Source of the DNA: Alteromonas sp. RKMC-009 | GTDB lineage: Bacteria; Pseudomonadota; Gammaproteobacteria; Enterobacterales; Alteromonadaceae | Reading direction: 5' to 3' | DNA length: 64,000 nucleotides | Assembly: GCF_003584565.2 (NCBI RefSeq) | Contig: NZ_CP031010.1 | Location: 434,001-498,000 of the forward strand | Part shown: one piece after another, positions 7,423 to 54,200 of the stretch | Layout of the letters: each line of letters starts with the position of its first letter | How positions within the stretch are numbered: the stretch's first letter is position 1 | Program-made: the position numbers and the translations under genes | The notes under the pieces: generated by a model | Databases searched by the model: none | What the model was told of the DNA's origin: nothing | Seen by the model: only the letters and a program-made list of their open reading frames with translations

Positions 7423-8667
7423 ATGAAGAAATCAACCCTGCCACTGAGTATCATTCTGGCGTTATCCGCTGCCGCATGCAGCCCTGATAAAACCCCGTCT
7501 TCTAATCAGGAAAGTCAGGAAAAACAATCATCTGCAGAATCTGTTGTCAGTAAGGTCAGCGTGAGTAATCCGGCCGGCGGCGCAGCGCTTCCGCAACTTC
7601 TGCGTTTTCCGGCAAGCGCATTTGATGACGACAATGCAGTGACAAAAAAAGTGACAAACTTTCCTTCTGAGTGGACAAAAGATCAGCAGGGAAATGATGT
7701 TCTTAACGTTTTAGTCACATTGGATGCCGGTGAAAAAGCCACAATTGCTCTGTCAGATTCAGCCCCGGATGCACCGGATGTTGCTTACACTGAATTGTCA
7801 GTTCGTCAGGGCGGTGAATGGGATGGTAAAGAATATAAAGCAGACGGTTTCAGCTTTGAGAATGTAGATTCTTTTACTGCGCCTCCGCAACTGACTGATC
7901 ATTCATACTATTTACGTTATGAAGGACCTGGCTGGGAAAATGACCTTGTGGGATACCGCTTATATCTGGACTGGCGTAACGGCACGGATATCTTTGTAAA
8001 AACCGGTAATGAGCCCGTGCTGCATCAGGTGGGGCAGGATGGTTACGACAGCTATCATGATTTGTCTGACTGGGGCGGCGATGTGCTGAAAGTGGGTAAG
8101 GCGCTGGGTCTTGGTTCTTTTGGCCGTATGGAAGGCGACACGGTAATGCATATGCAGAACGTGGACGAGATGTCCTGGGTACTGGGCCATGACGACAAGC
8201 TGTCTGCCGGGTTCACCGTGAATTATGATGGCTGGGATGTGAATGGTAAGAAACTCGATGCCAGTGCAGATTACGAAATTCACGCCGGTGACCCGTCAAC
8301 TACGGTAACCGTGTCGTTAAGCGAAACAGCAGATGACCTGGTAACGGGCATTGTTAAGCATGACAACACTCAGTACATCGAACTTGAAATGAATGGCTGG
8401 GGCGTCATTGCCACTTACGGTAAGCAAAGCTTGCTGGGCGAAGATGACGAGCTGGGCATGGCACTGTTCTACAAAGTAGACGATATCTCCCGCAAATTTG
8501 AAGCGGAATATGACTATTTGATTCAGTTCAAGCCGGCAACAACCATGGAATATCAGTTCATGGCAGTATGGCCTTCTCACCCTGACAGCCCTGATGACGA
8601 AAGTGGCTTCACAGAACTGCTGAAAACCAAACTTAAAGCACTGGCAAGCCCTGTAACAGCGGGGTAG
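7423..8667 (+). CDS. DUF4861-family lipoprotein of the uronate locus
   Basis: 414 residues. It has a lipoprotein signal with lipobox SAAAC (Cys19), followed by a low-complexity Ser/Gln-rich linker to about residue 50. The body resembles DUF4861: the segments GWENDLVGYRLYLDWRNGTD (about residues 170-190) and HDLSDWGGDVLKVGKALGLGSFG (about 210-232) are the conserved core as I recall it. DUF4861 genes tend to lie beside polysaccharide-lyase and uronate genes, but I know of no proven reaction. The gene is divergent from kduD with a shared operator, so it is probably induced by the same uronate. The start is supported by GGAG 8 bases upstream of the ATG. A role in binding or processing oligouronides at the cell surface is inference. 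Confidence 0.78.
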   Translation: MKKSTLPLSIILALSAAACSPDKTPSSNQESQEKQSSAESVVSKVSVSNPAGGAALPQLLRFPASAFDDDNAVTKKVTNFPSEWTKDQQGNDVLNVLVTLDAGEKATIALSDSAPDAPDVAYTELSVRQGGEWDGKEYKADGFSFENVDSFTAPPQLTDHSYYLRYEGPGWENDLVGYRLYLDWRNGTDIFVKTGNEPVLHQVGQDGYDSYHDLSDWGGDVLKVGKALGLGSFGRMEGDTVMHMQNVDEMSWVLGHDDKLSAGFTVNYDGWDVNGKKLDASADYEIHAGDPSTTVTVSLSETADDLVTGIVKHDNTQYIELEMNGWGVIATYGKQSLLGEDDELGMALFYKVDDISRKFEAEYDYLIQFKPATTMEYQFMAVWPSHPDSPDDESGFTELLKTKLKALASPVTAG

Positions 8668-8674
8668 GTTGATT

Positions 8675-8831
8675 CGGGAAGCAAGCCGGACGCATGAGCT
8701 GGGAAACCTTGATGCGTTTCAAACACGCTGTGAACCCATCCATGGGAGCTCCACAGCCGCATCCCTGCGGCTGAGGGTTTGAAACGCATCAAGATTTCCC
8801 TTCCGCTCATGCTTAACCGGCTTTCCTCCCG
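8675..8831. repeat. Long imperfect inverted repeat with conserved core (copy 1)
   Basis: Fills most of the gap between the DUF4861 gene and thiH. Outer arms 8675-8689 and 8817-8831 match 13 of 15. GCATGAGC (8692-8699) pairs with 8805-8812. The main arms 8701-8724 and 8777-8800 pair at 23 of 24 positions, 17 of them consecutively (8708-8724 with 8777-8793). The 52-base interior (8725-8776) holds a small hairpin around CAGCCGCATCCCTGCGGCTG. That interior is 43/52 identical to 52086-52137, whereas the arms are different sequences. No open reading frame or transposase is present, so this looks like a dispersed hairpin element of unknown function. Confidence 0.85.
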
Positions 8832-8957: not shown

Positions 8958-10073
8958 TTAACGGCCGAATGCATTCAGCCAGTCTGTCCATACCGGGTCG
9001 AGTCCGCGGGCGGTGAGGCTGTTTGCCACTGCACTGGCTGAGCGGGTGTCTTCGGTTGAGAATTGCTCCAGTGCTGTTGTGGGAGCGCTGTATCCGCCAG
9101 GTTGTGTTTGCGATGCGGCAGACAATTGATTAATAGCCAATGGTACGACATTGTCGCGAAATGCCGGGGATTCCCTGGTGGAAAGGCTTAATTCCACTTC
9201 CGGAAAACACAGTCGGTAAGCGCAAATAAGTTGTATGAGCTGCTTATCTGATACCTGACTTTTCTGCGTTGCCCGGTCACCGGCGCAGGGCTTGATGCGG
9301 GGGAACGCAACGGAGTAGCGACTTTTCCAGTAGCGTTGTTGTAACAGGCTGAGATGTAATGCGGTAAATGCGCTGTCCGTCCGCCATTCGGATAACCCGA
9401 GTAATGCGCCGAGACCGATTTTGTTCATACCAGCTTCGCCAAGCCTGTCCGGTGTTGCTAACCGCCAGTCGAAATCCTGCTTTTTGCCCCGCAGGTGATA
9501 CTCCGCATAATGGGCGCGATGATAAGTTTCTTGATAAACCAGCACACTGTCAGTTCCGGCTGCTGCAAGGGCACGGTACTCATCTGTGGAAAGAGGTTGT
9601 ACCTCCATGGCAACATGGCTGAAGTGAGCCTTTACTAACTCTATTGCCTCTAGAAAATAATCCATGCCTGCTTTTGTTTCGTGCTCGCCGGTAACCAGCA
9701 ACACGGAATCAAAACCCATTTTCTTAATGGCATAAACTTCCTCTGATATTTCAGCCATGGTCAGTTTCGTGCGCTTAATTTTATTGCTCATGGTAAAGCC
9801 ACAATAGGTGCATTCGTTGGCGCACAGGTTCGACAGATACAATGGCACGAACAAAGACACGGTATGGCCGAAACGCTGGCGTGTGAGGGCCTGTGCCTTA
9901 ACTGCCATATCCGGCAGAAATCCCTCTGCGGCAGGGGATATCAGCGCAAGAAAATCCTGCCAGTGCCGGACGGAGCGTTGTAGTGCTGACATCACATCTG
10001 CCGCGCTTTTGCTGTAAAGCGCAAGCCTGACATCGTCCCAGTCTGTGCGGGACAGCTCTTCTGCCACTGTCAT
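8958..10073 (-). CDS. thiH: 2-iminoacetate synthase ThiH
   Basis: 371 residues, near the usual 377. It is a radical-SAM enzyme that cleaves tyrosine to dehydroglycine (2-iminoacetate) and p-cresol for thiazole formation in anaerobic-type thiamine synthesis. The [4Fe-4S] motif C-x3-C-x2-C is seen at Cys84, Cys88 and Cys91 (LCANECTYC). It is followed by [10 protein letters not shown] and the C-terminal BATS-like region with AFPRIKPC. The start overlaps the thiG stop by four bases. It is the last gene of the thiC operon. Confidence 0.95.

Positions 10074-13322: not shown

Positions 13323-13323
<1 letters not shown>
11785..13323 (-). CDS. thiDE: Fused HMP-phosphate kinase / thiamine-phosphate synthase (ThiD-ThiE)
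   Basis: 512 residues, about the sum of ThiD (266) and ThiE (210) plus a linker. N-terminal ThiD domain: GGTDSSGAAGLQQD (residues 8-21) and VKGGH (about 171) for phosphorylating the pyrimidine. C-terminal ThiE domain from about residue 310: QLRIKSK, FINDHWQLAIEHGAYGVHLGQEDL and GHIFPTRTKDMPSAPQGT, which couples pyrimidine and thiazole phosphates. The usual ThiD start motif is GSDSGGGAGIQAD and the ThiE loop is QLRDK, so both sites carry substitutions. The gene sits between thiC (overlapping TAATG) and thiF. Confidence 0.94.
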
Positions 13324-15239
<1,916 letters not shown>

Positions 15240-15260: not shown

Positions 15261-15311
15261 GCAACACCGGCAAACAGACGGTCGTCTGTTGTGATGGTGG
15301 AACGGTGTTGC
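15261..15311 (-). promoter_or_regulatory. Nested hairpins between TPP riboswitch and thiC
   Basis: A 9-base perfect stem (GCAACACCG 15261-15269 with CGGTGTTGC 15303-15311) encloses an 8-base stem (AACAGACG 15273-15280 with 15283-15290). It lies just downstream of the aptamer on the minus-strand transcript, where an expression platform is expected. No U-run follows, so simple intrinsic termination is not supported. Translational or Rho-dependent control is possible. Confidence 0.5.
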
Positions 15312-15317
15312 TGCTTG

Positions 15318-15407
15318 TTCCCTTCGCAGGTATTAGCCTGATCAGGTTCTACGGATCCCGCAATGCGGTCTCAGCTTGCTTTCATGTGAAAGACGAAGCA
15401 CTCCGAC
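15318..15407 (-). ncRNA. TPP riboswitch (thi-box) upstream of thiC
   Basis: Read on the minus strand, the conserved aptamer pieces occur in order: CGGAGTGC (15398-15405), CTGAGA (15369-15374), AACCTGAT (15341-15348) and GCGAAGGGA (15319-15327). These are the hallmark segments of the thiamine-pyrophosphate aptamer. It should repress the thiC-thiDE-thiF-thiS-thiG-thiH operon when TPP is plentiful. Confidence 0.95.
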
Positions 15408-15420
15408 AAGTTCTGTTTTT

Positions 15421-51910: not shown

Positions 51911-51914
51911 TCCT

Positions 51915-52160
51915 AATTAGCCGTGGTGGTCGTTTTCGCGAACGGGGGGAGGTGTTGCCTGCAAAACTTACTACGGCATGTGTTCGTATAGAGCCGCAGG
52001 GAGCAAAGTAACCCGCAAAACCGGTAAAGCCTGATTAACCGTGGTGGTCATTTTCGCGTGCGGGGAGAGAGGTTGCCTGCAAAACTCGCTGTAAATCCAT
52101 CCCTGGAAGCTCGGCAGCCGCATCCATGCGGCTGACGGTTTTGCAGGCAACCTCTCTCCC
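51915..52160. repeat. Hairpin repeat (copy 2) preceded by a solo arm copy
   Basis: A 23-base perfect inverted repeat (52063-52085 with 52138-52160, arm GGGAGAGAGGTTGCCTGCAA plus AAC) encloses a 52-base interior (52086-52137). That interior has a small hairpin (52115-52134) and is 43/52 identical to the interior of the 8.7 kb element. Upstream, 51915-51968 is a 46/54 copy of 52033-52086, the left flank and arm without an interior. The stretch lies between the deacetylase gene and the minus-strand DUF6436 gene and contains no gene. Confidence 0.85.
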
Positions 52161-52185
52161 TCTCGCTGGCACAGACTCCAGACAA

Positions 52186-52722
52186 TCAGCTTTTAACTGC
52201 GCAATAGCAGCCTTCGCCGGCTATGTTAAGCATTGCGCCGTTGAAATCCGGTTTTTGAACTTCTGCCGCGATAGTGGTGACCAGATCATCGCCGGTATAG
52301 CAGCCGAGTCCTGTTGCATAAGCACCCAGATACCGGAGCTGGTTTTTACTGTCGATGACTGCAACGGCGGGAAAGCTGGGGATTTCGGCGGCGAGGGATG
52401 AGTATTCGTTGATGTTCAGTGTTTTAAAAACATAACCATTATCCTGCAGCAGGTTTGTCAGCTCTTTCTGATGCTGCCGGCTCAGGGAATTGCAGAAGCA
52501 GGGCGTGTCTGCCTCGAAATGGACGATGGTGCCGGGAGTGATGCCTGCCTCTGCCATTTCAGAAACAAAACGTGTATCGAAGTCTTTGTCCTGCGAAGCG
52601 GACGTGAGGGTAAGGTCGGGATCGAAAGGGACTGTCTGATTACCGCCGTATACCCACAGACCGGTCATTAGTACGCAAAGCCAGGCAATCATCAACAGCC
52701 AGCTGGCTTTGCCCTTCATCAT
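52186..52722 (-). CDS. DUF6436-like membrane-anchored thioredoxin-fold protein
   Basis: 178 residues from ATG 52722; an adjacent ATG is at 52719. N-terminal membrane helix (about 6-26). The rest looks like a thioredoxin fold with a short CFCN motif after [10 protein letters not shown] (about residue 70) in place of a classical CXXC pair, and [29 protein letters not shown] (about 113-141). Two further Cys occur in [10 protein letters not shown] at the end. The DUF6436 assignment is from memory. The start overlaps the chemoreceptor stop, so it is coupled to that gene. Confidence 0.65.
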
Positions 52723-54200
52723 ACGCTGAATTTCTGTATGGCTGCCTGCATGTCCCTGCACAGTGAAGAAAGTTGTACTACCTGTTGCTCAAGTTGCGCT
52801 GCTGTGGCGGCTTCTTCCTGAGATAGTTCGTGCATTTTCGCCGTACTTTCCGCAATAGACTGGGAAGCGGCTTCCTGTTCAACGGCAGAACTTGCCACTT
52901 CAGTCATGTGCTCAGAGGCCGACGTAATTTGTTCTTCAATTTCAGACATGGCTGAGCTGGCATTGGAGGAATCTTCTACAGCCTTGTCTACCAGAGTAAT
53001 ACAGGTCTGCATCTGCTCCACGGAGCTGGCGGTACTGGCAACTAACTGTTCGGTAATGGTGGTGATTTCATCCGCACTTTCTTTCGAGCGGATTGCCAGC
53101 GTGCGAACTTCGTCTGCTACTACAGCGAAACCGCGACCATGTTCGCCGGCACGGGCGGACTCAATTGCCGCGTTCAGGGCCAGCAGGTTTGTTTGCTCGG
53201 CTACCGCGGTGATAGAGCGCATGGCATCTGAAATGTTACTACACCGTTCATTGAGTTCGGCATTGGTTTTTGCTGCCTGAGTCAGCACACTCTTAAGCGA
53301 AGCGATGGAGCTTGCCGTTGCATCTATGGCTTGCTTGGAATCGCCGGTGAGTGAGGAAGCCTGACTGGTTTTATCGTTGGCAAGCTGGGTTCTTTCTGTC
53401 GTCAGTTGCATCGACACTGCAATTTCTTCAGACGCGGATGAAACGCTGCTGACCTCATTGGCACTTTCGGCACTGGTACGGCTCAGTTCTACCGTAGCTG
53501 ACTTTATCACTTCACTGGACGAGGCTACTTTGTCTGTTAACTGGCGGGCATTGGCCACCAGAGACTTAATTTGCATGAGCAAATCAGCAAACTGACTGAT
53601 GCCTTTGTTGTCCTGCGGGATTTTAATAGTCAGGTCAATGCGGTCCCTTTGTGCGAGAACCTGAGACACTGTATTACTGAGGGCAAACGCATTGACGCCT
53701 TCGTCGTGGGAGCGTTTGGCAACATACATAAGCGCCACACATTCAGCAATAGCGAACAGGGCATGTAAAACCAGAATGAAGAAAGTGATGTGCCCTTCTT
53801 CAAAGATGAAAACACCCGCTCCCTGAGTCTGCAGTACGAAGAAGCCGATGTGATGAACCGCTACAACGGCGGTAGCAATGCCAATTACCAGCCAGTCCCG
53901 GAATACAACCAGGATGGCCAGAAGAACGAAAATTTCGAAGTGCCACTCAATGAGACCAAAGGTCTGGTTGATGTGCAGCGCTGTCATCAACTGCACGGCA
54001 ATAGCGATTGTCGCCCGGCTTAGCAGAGAGCCCGGTTGGGTAAAACTGAAAAACAGCGGCAGTGCAATAATAGGTAAACCGAAGATAAAGGCGGGTAACA
54101 GTTCGCCGGTGTAAAAACCGATTGCAACAGCAAGCGCAAACTGCACGGGCAATATAATGCGAAAGATCCTGTGACCGTCAAGAATCCAGGGATATTGCAT
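52719..54200 (-). CDS. Methyl-accepting chemotaxis protein with multi-helix membrane sensor
   Basis: 493 residues. Five or six N-terminal membrane helices (about 15-165) replace the usual periplasmic ligand domain. They contain [20 protein letters not shown] and VAVHHIGFF, histidine-bearing segments that might bind a metal or small ligand. A HAMP-less linker then leads to a signalling domain with the hairpin tip [42 protein letters not shown] (about 320-361). It signals to CheA. It overlaps the DUF6436 gene. Confidence 0.9.

Follow-up and report, generated by a model that had tools for sequence, protein, structure and literature searches.

Two hairpins in a 64,000-nucleotide stretch of Alteromonas sp. 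RKMC-009 (contig NZ_CP031010.1, positions 434,001 to 498,000; called the window below) are best read as copies of a dispersed non-coding element of Gammaproteobacteria, which has its core in common with YPAL and Ysr224 of Yersinia. The conserved part is a 52-nt three-way junction bearing two hairpins, each with a six-base loop on a closing C-G pair, and the arms would form a double-stranded handle for which pairing is the sole requirement. The element would work as a folded RNA, with a protein holding both of its like loops. Taken as a whole, this account of a core-conserved dispersed hairpin acting as a protein-held RNA is probably correct. The preliminary description of the two loci had proposed selection on structure, a recombination or inversion target, or an element that copies its neighbouring arm. 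Its observation is confirmed as right and general; constraint on structure is the best-supported of these readings, and copying of the neighbouring arm is not supported.

The anatomy of the two copies (Table 1) agrees with what was first described. The interiors, each 52 nt long, are identical at 43 of 52 positions in direct comparison, and the paired arms that enclose them, 24 nt in the 8.7-kb copy and 23 nt in the 52-kb copy with 52 nt between in each, are unrelated in sequence between the copies. Four of the nine interior differences make up two compensated base pairs, and two more are the second base of both hexaloops. RNA fold z-scores on the core strand are -11.0 (8.7-kb copy) and -9.4 (52-kb copy), and the complement strand of both likewise folds far better than shuffles. 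The two-loop motif has two matches in the window against 0.01 expected, and 0 of 100 shuffles reached two. Pairing in the predicted fold of the 8.7-kb copy extends, mismatches included, to 8675-8831. Both copies are situated between convergent frames, the 8.7-kb left arm starting 34 nt past the stop codon of the + strand gene 7423-8667. Around neither copy was a promoter- or terminator-like site detected, which counts against the RNA reading. That neither copy holds an open reading frame is a fair statement, since the overlapping frame (91 aa from an ATG, 52126-52401, + strand, over the 52-kb right arm) is antisense over the 191-aa frame 52186-52761 and is taken as spurious. An Rfam scan of the window at the gathering cut-off returned TPP only, a riboswitch at 15302-15415 (- strand, 71.4 bits) upstream of the - strand frame 13323-15206. 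This frame and its neighbours, which we take to resemble a thiamine synthesis operon, end near the 8.7-kb copy.

Table 1. Features of the two element copies, in window coordinates
Feature	Position	Strand	Basis or remark
Outer mismatched left-arm part, 8.7-kb copy	8675..8700	+	pairs with 8801-8831 in predicted fold
Left arm, 8.7-kb copy	8701..8724	+	96% complementary to 8777-8800
Conserved 52-nt core, 8.7-kb copy	8725..8776	+	covariance model R1 and pattern match
Inner hairpin 1 with 5-nt bulge, 8.7-kb copy	8727..8749	+	A2 columns 10-32, covarying
Hairpin 1 loop, 8.7-kb copy	8738-8743	+	ATCCAT; complement ATGGAT
Inner hairpin 2, 8.7-kb copy	8752..8775	+	A2 columns 35-58, covarying
Hairpin 2 loop, 8.7-kb copy	8761-8766	+	ATCCCT; complement AGGGAT
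Right arm, 8.7-kb copy	8777..8800	+	complementarity to left arm
Outer mismatched right-arm part, 8.7-kb copy	8801..8831	+	predicted fold
Partial direct repeat of left flank and left arm of 52-kb copy, without core	51912..51968	+	86% identical to 52030-52086; likely remains of an array unit
Left arm, 52-kb copy	52063..52085	+	100% complementary to 52138-52160
Conserved 52-nt core, 52-kb copy	52086..52137	+	covariance model R1 and pattern match
Inner hairpin 1, 52-kb copy	52088..52110	+	A2 columns 10-32
Hairpin 1 loop, 52-kb copy	52099-52104	+	ATCCCT; complement AGGGAT
Inner hairpin 2, 52-kb copy	52113..52136	+	A2 columns 35-58
Hairpin 2 loop, 52-kb copy	52122-52127	+	ATCCAT; complement ATGGAT
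Right arm, 52-kb copy	52138..52160	+	complementarity; end 26 nt from - strand frame 52186-52761

The case for constraint on structure comes from the rest of the family. With three mismatches or fewer allowed, a pattern search gave 13 hits in this genome and 0 in a reversed control. Covariance model R1, whose 66 columns comprise seven arm pairs and the core and which was built from 12 copies of this genome, detected 19 places at an E value of 1 or below, of which 15 score 60 bits or more. Among the 12 seeds, 99.2% of pair cells pair, a figure that falls to 40-46% when the partner is shifted by one column, and 12 of the 21 pairs are changed on both sides, against 6.4 in shuffles. The arms were scored at positions 8-21 outward of the core only, which are absent from R1 and so avoid circularity. 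Arms of 13 copies from this genome pair at 11.46 of 14 positions within a copy and at 5.88 when swapped between copies; the corresponding values are 12.21 and 5.78 for 72 copies of other named records, drawn from 106 hits with weaker, cut-off or odd-length hits excluded. Core identity is 0.815 in this genome and 0.817 in the others, and left-arm identity 0.325 and 0.298. Pairing within but not between copies implies that the arm sequence is nearly free and the pairing constrained. Some copies break the pairing rule, the lowest scores being 7/14 in this genome and 6/14 elsewhere; a lack of complementarity in most copies, which the preliminary description had named as evidence against its claim, is not seen among the copies scored. 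The 52-nt core length is retained in 196 of 199 copies. Integron attC sites have the consensus box GTTRRRY, which is found at the right end of the core in 0 of the 13 copies, and terminal inverted repeats were not seen in copies of this genome. The gene dnaA occupies bases 769-975 of the 4.93-Mb contig. The 14 element loci are confined to its first 1.44 Mb and to the part beyond 4.14 Mb, and 12 of 14 fall in the origin half (p 0.006 in a test picked after the data were seen); the listed loci of another genome, G047, show no clear clustering of this kind.

Beyond this genome, R1 has matches in 35 of 59 Alteromonas genomes, from 0 to at least 62 per genome, and in 52 of 274 genomes of the class Gammaproteobacteria, representing 46 of 222 genera; the number of candidates scored makes the per-genome figures lower bounds. 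Among named genomes, a scan gave at least 120 matching stretches, and among the matches listed are Alteromonas, Lysobacter, Microbulbifer, Neiella, Reinekea, Pantoea, Sedimenticola, Ectothiorhodospira and Thiohalomonas. The 8.7-kb copy has zero matches in plasmids. Two stretches of viral contigs (L334, L335) match the core pattern exactly, and arrays of alternating orientation and regular spacing are present in Neiella litorisoli (L271 4783-5754) and in another record (L328 2983-3831).

How does the element relate to repeats already known? YPAL prefers stop codons and is said to have been first described in De Gregorio 2006. The same 52-nt core is recognised by eye on the opposite strand of the published RU-2 sequence (PMC2759123), and YPAL is likewise dispersed, intergenic and hairpin-forming; it is reported to be mobile, with target duplications of 3-26 bp and targets at or beside dyad symmetry (PMC2229807). 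RU-2 is presented as a conserved 168-nt unit, arms included, in 60 intergenic regions of one genome (PMC2759123), whereas in the copies studied here the core alone is conserved and the arms are particular to each copy. The consensus of the Rfam model of Ysr224 (RF02770) has the same core and both loops, on the core strand. However, that model includes Yersinia-specific flanks, and the copies of this genome, where matched, score 13-32 bits, under its gathering score of 70: the 8.7-kb copy reaches 13.1 bits, and four of eight loci match at E up to 1 (L011 at 32.4 bits, three at 21.6-22.4). Ysr224 is listed among the 20 most prevalent annotated sRNAs (PMC9029176), and several copies of differing expression are reported in Y. 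ruckeri (PMC12112432). The common core thus places the element in the same superfamily as YPAL and Ysr224, while it is not Ysr224 by the Rfam rule and not YPAL by its arms. Both the core in RU-2/YPAL and the reported expression of Ysr224 copies speak for the protein-held RNA proposed above, and the copies of Alteromonas sp. RKMC-009 may likewise be transcribed. ERIC, Correia/NEMIS and other bacterial MITEs are similarly described as small, dispersed and intergenic, with long stem-loops (PMC2229807, PMC10969869), and RNase III processing is reported for Correia elements (PMC10969869); MITEs of the ERIC/Correia type have conserved termini in the published account (PMC2229807), whereas here it is the interior junction that is conserved. 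In titles and abstract openings, with few subscription papers covered, no publication was found that places the core outside Yersinia and Erwinia or links it to CsrA, and a literature search by loop letters returned unrelated papers only. REP/RAYT repeats bear a GTAG or CGTC tag next to a short palindrome.

New copies probably arrive as whole MITE-like units, preferably just past gene ends and oriented so that the core strand is sense to the gene upstream, and old copies remain, their arms drifting by paired changes and their tandem arrays growing, shrinking and swapping halves; such mobility may extend to Alteromonas sp. RKMC-009. The element measures 198-200 nt in G093, a Chromatiales genome, where it forms a MITE-like unit with terminal inverted repeats. 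Its terminus TACGTGTTCC occurs 127 times at two mismatches or fewer (5 for the reversed control), with CTAAA to its left in 9 of 13 copies examined. Over 11 aligned copies, seven of them distinct, five arm pairs are changed on both sides and 14 core pairs are invariant; three copies have mismatched arms that resemble halves of different types. Pairs of termini also lie 92, 249 and 288 nt apart (C1:17432-17523, C12:10355-10603, C65:2109-2396), spacings that suggest variants of differing size, some of them perhaps coreless. In A. confluentis, one subfamily has common arms at several sites, with paired differences. These two subfamilies indicate that fresh copies bring their arms along and that old copies have lost the likeness. 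Sharing of one arm sequence by other copies, which the preliminary description had likewise set against its own reading, is therefore true within recent subfamilies and not otherwise.

Comparison of related genomes shows how copies change in place. Flanks from this genome match those of A. confluentis copies for 9 of 14 queries (8 loci), in a comparison covering 21 loci of 38 hits. In six clean pairs, 10 of the changes at the inner 14 positions of the arms are compensated and 2 are one-sided, which again favours selection on structure; six of the ten come from pair 8, possibly replaced by another copy, and one-sided changes prevail farther out. Pairs 5 and 6 (mis-paired array copies) and pair 7 (arms mismatched in both species) were excluded from this count. 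Both window copies are absent from A. confluentis, where the 8.7-kb site has the same genes with a short terminator-like hairpin between. Two further genomes, G046 and G047, are 93-99% identical in long aligned blocks; at the sites compared on both sides the elements are present in both, and alignments often break there, some G046 copies lying at contig ends with possible assembly effects. The elements differ by array length, by swapped half-elements and by loss of an inner hairpin between repeated loop words. Loci H, K, N and R are nearly unchanged, and a G047 copy at locus B has lost hairpin 1 and kept perfect arms. Next to the element at this locus, G046 (L205) holds a long open stretch that spans about 2.36 kb from one aligned block to the next, and in its place G047 (L195) has 0.7 kb with core-bearing array units. 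Loci A and E hold, at the same place, very different yet self-complementary arms; an origin of these from another copy of the same genome was rejected, as no match was found in the parts of G046 and G047 searched. Upstream of elements L197 and L198 of G047 (left of about 9850-9980) the sequence is the same and includes a T-run, as though a gene end had been duplicated together with its element; no rRNA was found at L197. A position of G047 loci D and F behind rRNA operons was considered and dropped, an Rfam scan finding no rRNA in 4.3 kb at locus D. Neither the A. confluentis nor the G046/G047 comparison yielded a clean filled and empty pair with a target duplication.

Copies tend to sit behind a gene end, oriented so that the core strand is the sense strand. 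For 145 copies, with gene context taken from a crude ORF caller, the neighbours are both in core sense in 56, both antisense in 25, convergent in 32 and divergent in 19, with 12 copies within a frame and 1 undecided. No more than 100 nt from the arms there are 63 gene 3' ends in the sense of the core strand and 26 in that of its complement (p 1e-4, on the same crude calls), a placement behind gene ends like that of YPAL. In the outer 22 nt of 138 copies, T-runs are present on the left in 10 copies and on the right in 5, A-runs on the right in 2 and on the left in 1.

If the fold acts as RNA, the functional strand should tolerate G.U mismatches. Isolated arm mismatches on the core strand comprise 30 G.U and 76 A.C in 138 non-redundant copies of 159 collected, and A.C predominates in 47 copies, G.U in 16 (p 1e-4 by a sign-flip test). 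A second set of previously unused loci (40 of 53 hits taken, 32 copies left after removal of near-duplicates) gave 6 G.U and 18 A.C (p 0.03), and a third, from further Alteromonas (46 of 56 hits taken, 29 copies), gave 7 and 10, which is not significant (p 0.7). The three sets pooled, 199 copies, hold 43 G.U against 104 A.C; the core helices have no asymmetry (6 against 5). A transcription-linked mutation bias was considered as the cause and rejected, the direction being the same in four gene contexts (G.U/A.C 12/43 with both neighbours in sense, 4/8 with both antisense, 6/9 convergent, 3/10 divergent) and reversed, at 6/4, in 14 copies without clear gene context. Since A.C on the core strand is G.U on its complement, it is on the complement that pairing appears to matter, and a core-strand RNA as the sole functional form is not favoured. 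Against the complement strand, the core strand is usually sense to the upstream gene and the Ysr224 model lies on it.

On the complement strand, both loops read ANGGAN and are closed by C-G. This holds for both loops in 69 of 71 model-found copies and in 29 of 29 further copies; among the 71, A1 and A5 are invariant, G3 and G4 occur in 70 or 71, and N2 and N6 vary. As R1 was built from such copies, part of the loop invariance is due to selection of the sample, while the choice of variable bases is not. The high-affinity CsrA/RsmE site is described as a hexaloop ANGGAX directly on a stem (PMC4005645), and bridging by one CsrA dimer is reported for 10-63 nt between sites, with an optimum above 18 (PMC7652899); 20 nt separate the two GGA motifs in the 52-nt core. 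The hairpins of CsrB/RsmZ are alike in coming as a pair, with an ANGGAN hexaloop directly on the stem and GGA spacing in this range. However, CsrB and RsmZ are dedicated sRNA genes, whereas the present element is a dispersed repeat with its loops on the complement strand, and its binding is a prediction. Both the excess of A.C over G.U on the core strand and the fit of the two complement-strand loops to the CsrA/RsmE hexaloop are new here. They allow the tentative suggestion, possible though doubtful, that a MITE-like repeat of Gammaproteobacteria spreads a bivalent CsrA/Rsm site, a complement-strand ANGGAN pair at fixed distance on a sequence-free stem. Two sequence signals on the same strand lead to CsrA; opposed to it are the orientation of the genes, the strand on which the Ysr224 model lies and one carrier that apparently lacks CsrA. 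CsrA was found in 48 of 52 carrier and 187 of 222 non-carrier genomes (p 0.18), and in 40 of 41 carriers and 172 of 195 non-carriers that are near-complete (p 0.09). The carrier in question (G254, 98% complete) gave zero CsrA above the cut-off, a second search included, and its copy (L083) has both loops kept and perfect inner arms. Very stable stems are described as a possible disadvantage (PMC7652899).

Several other explanations have to be weighed against a protein-held RNA. Paired arms could also be produced without selection, by a neutral correction in which replication through a long imperfect palindrome switches template and copies arm onto arm. The G093 arm changes in blocks of adjacent pairs, the mismatched chimeric copies and the perfect arms of the G047 locus B copy that lacks hairpin 1 fit such a process, but it does not predict the strand asymmetry of mismatches and leaves the covariation of the short core stems unexplained; we give it a modest chance of being the right account. 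Alternatively, the element may act as DNA and have no RNA function, an unseen transposase or nuclease recognising the folded single strand or cruciform, with loops and junction as its binding site and the arms paired because mobility needs a hairpin. This would suit the MITE-like unit with terminal repeats in G093 and the copy number of 0 to at least 62 within one genus, and the orientation bias with its left T-runs (10 of 138 copies, against 2 right A-runs) would fit target choice at terminators. However, a cruciform predicts no one-strand excess of A.C over G.U, and copies persist at identical sites in two species, and we consider a purely DNA-level role unlikely.

The two remaining ideas, both raised at the outset, fare worse. 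Were arms made at insertion by copying adjacent target sequence, differing self-complementary arms such as those of loci A and E, which match no other copy compared, would be expected; yet arms are mostly homologous at the sites common to two species, recently amplified subfamilies carry their own arms to new sites, and a one-arm, coreless site was not found among the sites compared, making this very improbable. A target of recombination or inversion is hardly credible. The alternating-orientation arrays (L271, L328) and the rearrangements at elements between G046 and G047 might hint at it, but the stretches compared hold zero inverted segments between copies, the changes look like repeat-mediated duplication and deletion, and the rearranging arrays provide no positive evidence for it.

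A core described only in Yersinia and Erwinia in the papers covered is found here in 46 of 222 sampled gammaproteobacterial genera, and the Rfam model fails to reach the copies tested. As conservation is confined to the interior, such a family would escape any method based on aligning entire repeats. The arms, which change fast yet in pairs, also offer a natural case in which to tell selection from template-switch correction in palindromes. The element may affect neighbouring genes. If the CsrA reading is true, dispersed copies would titrate CsrA or bring it to gene-end transcripts and antisense transcripts, and a selfish repeat would be tied to a global regulator. Were CsrA to bind the loops, a global regulatory network would include this repeat as a component that spreads.
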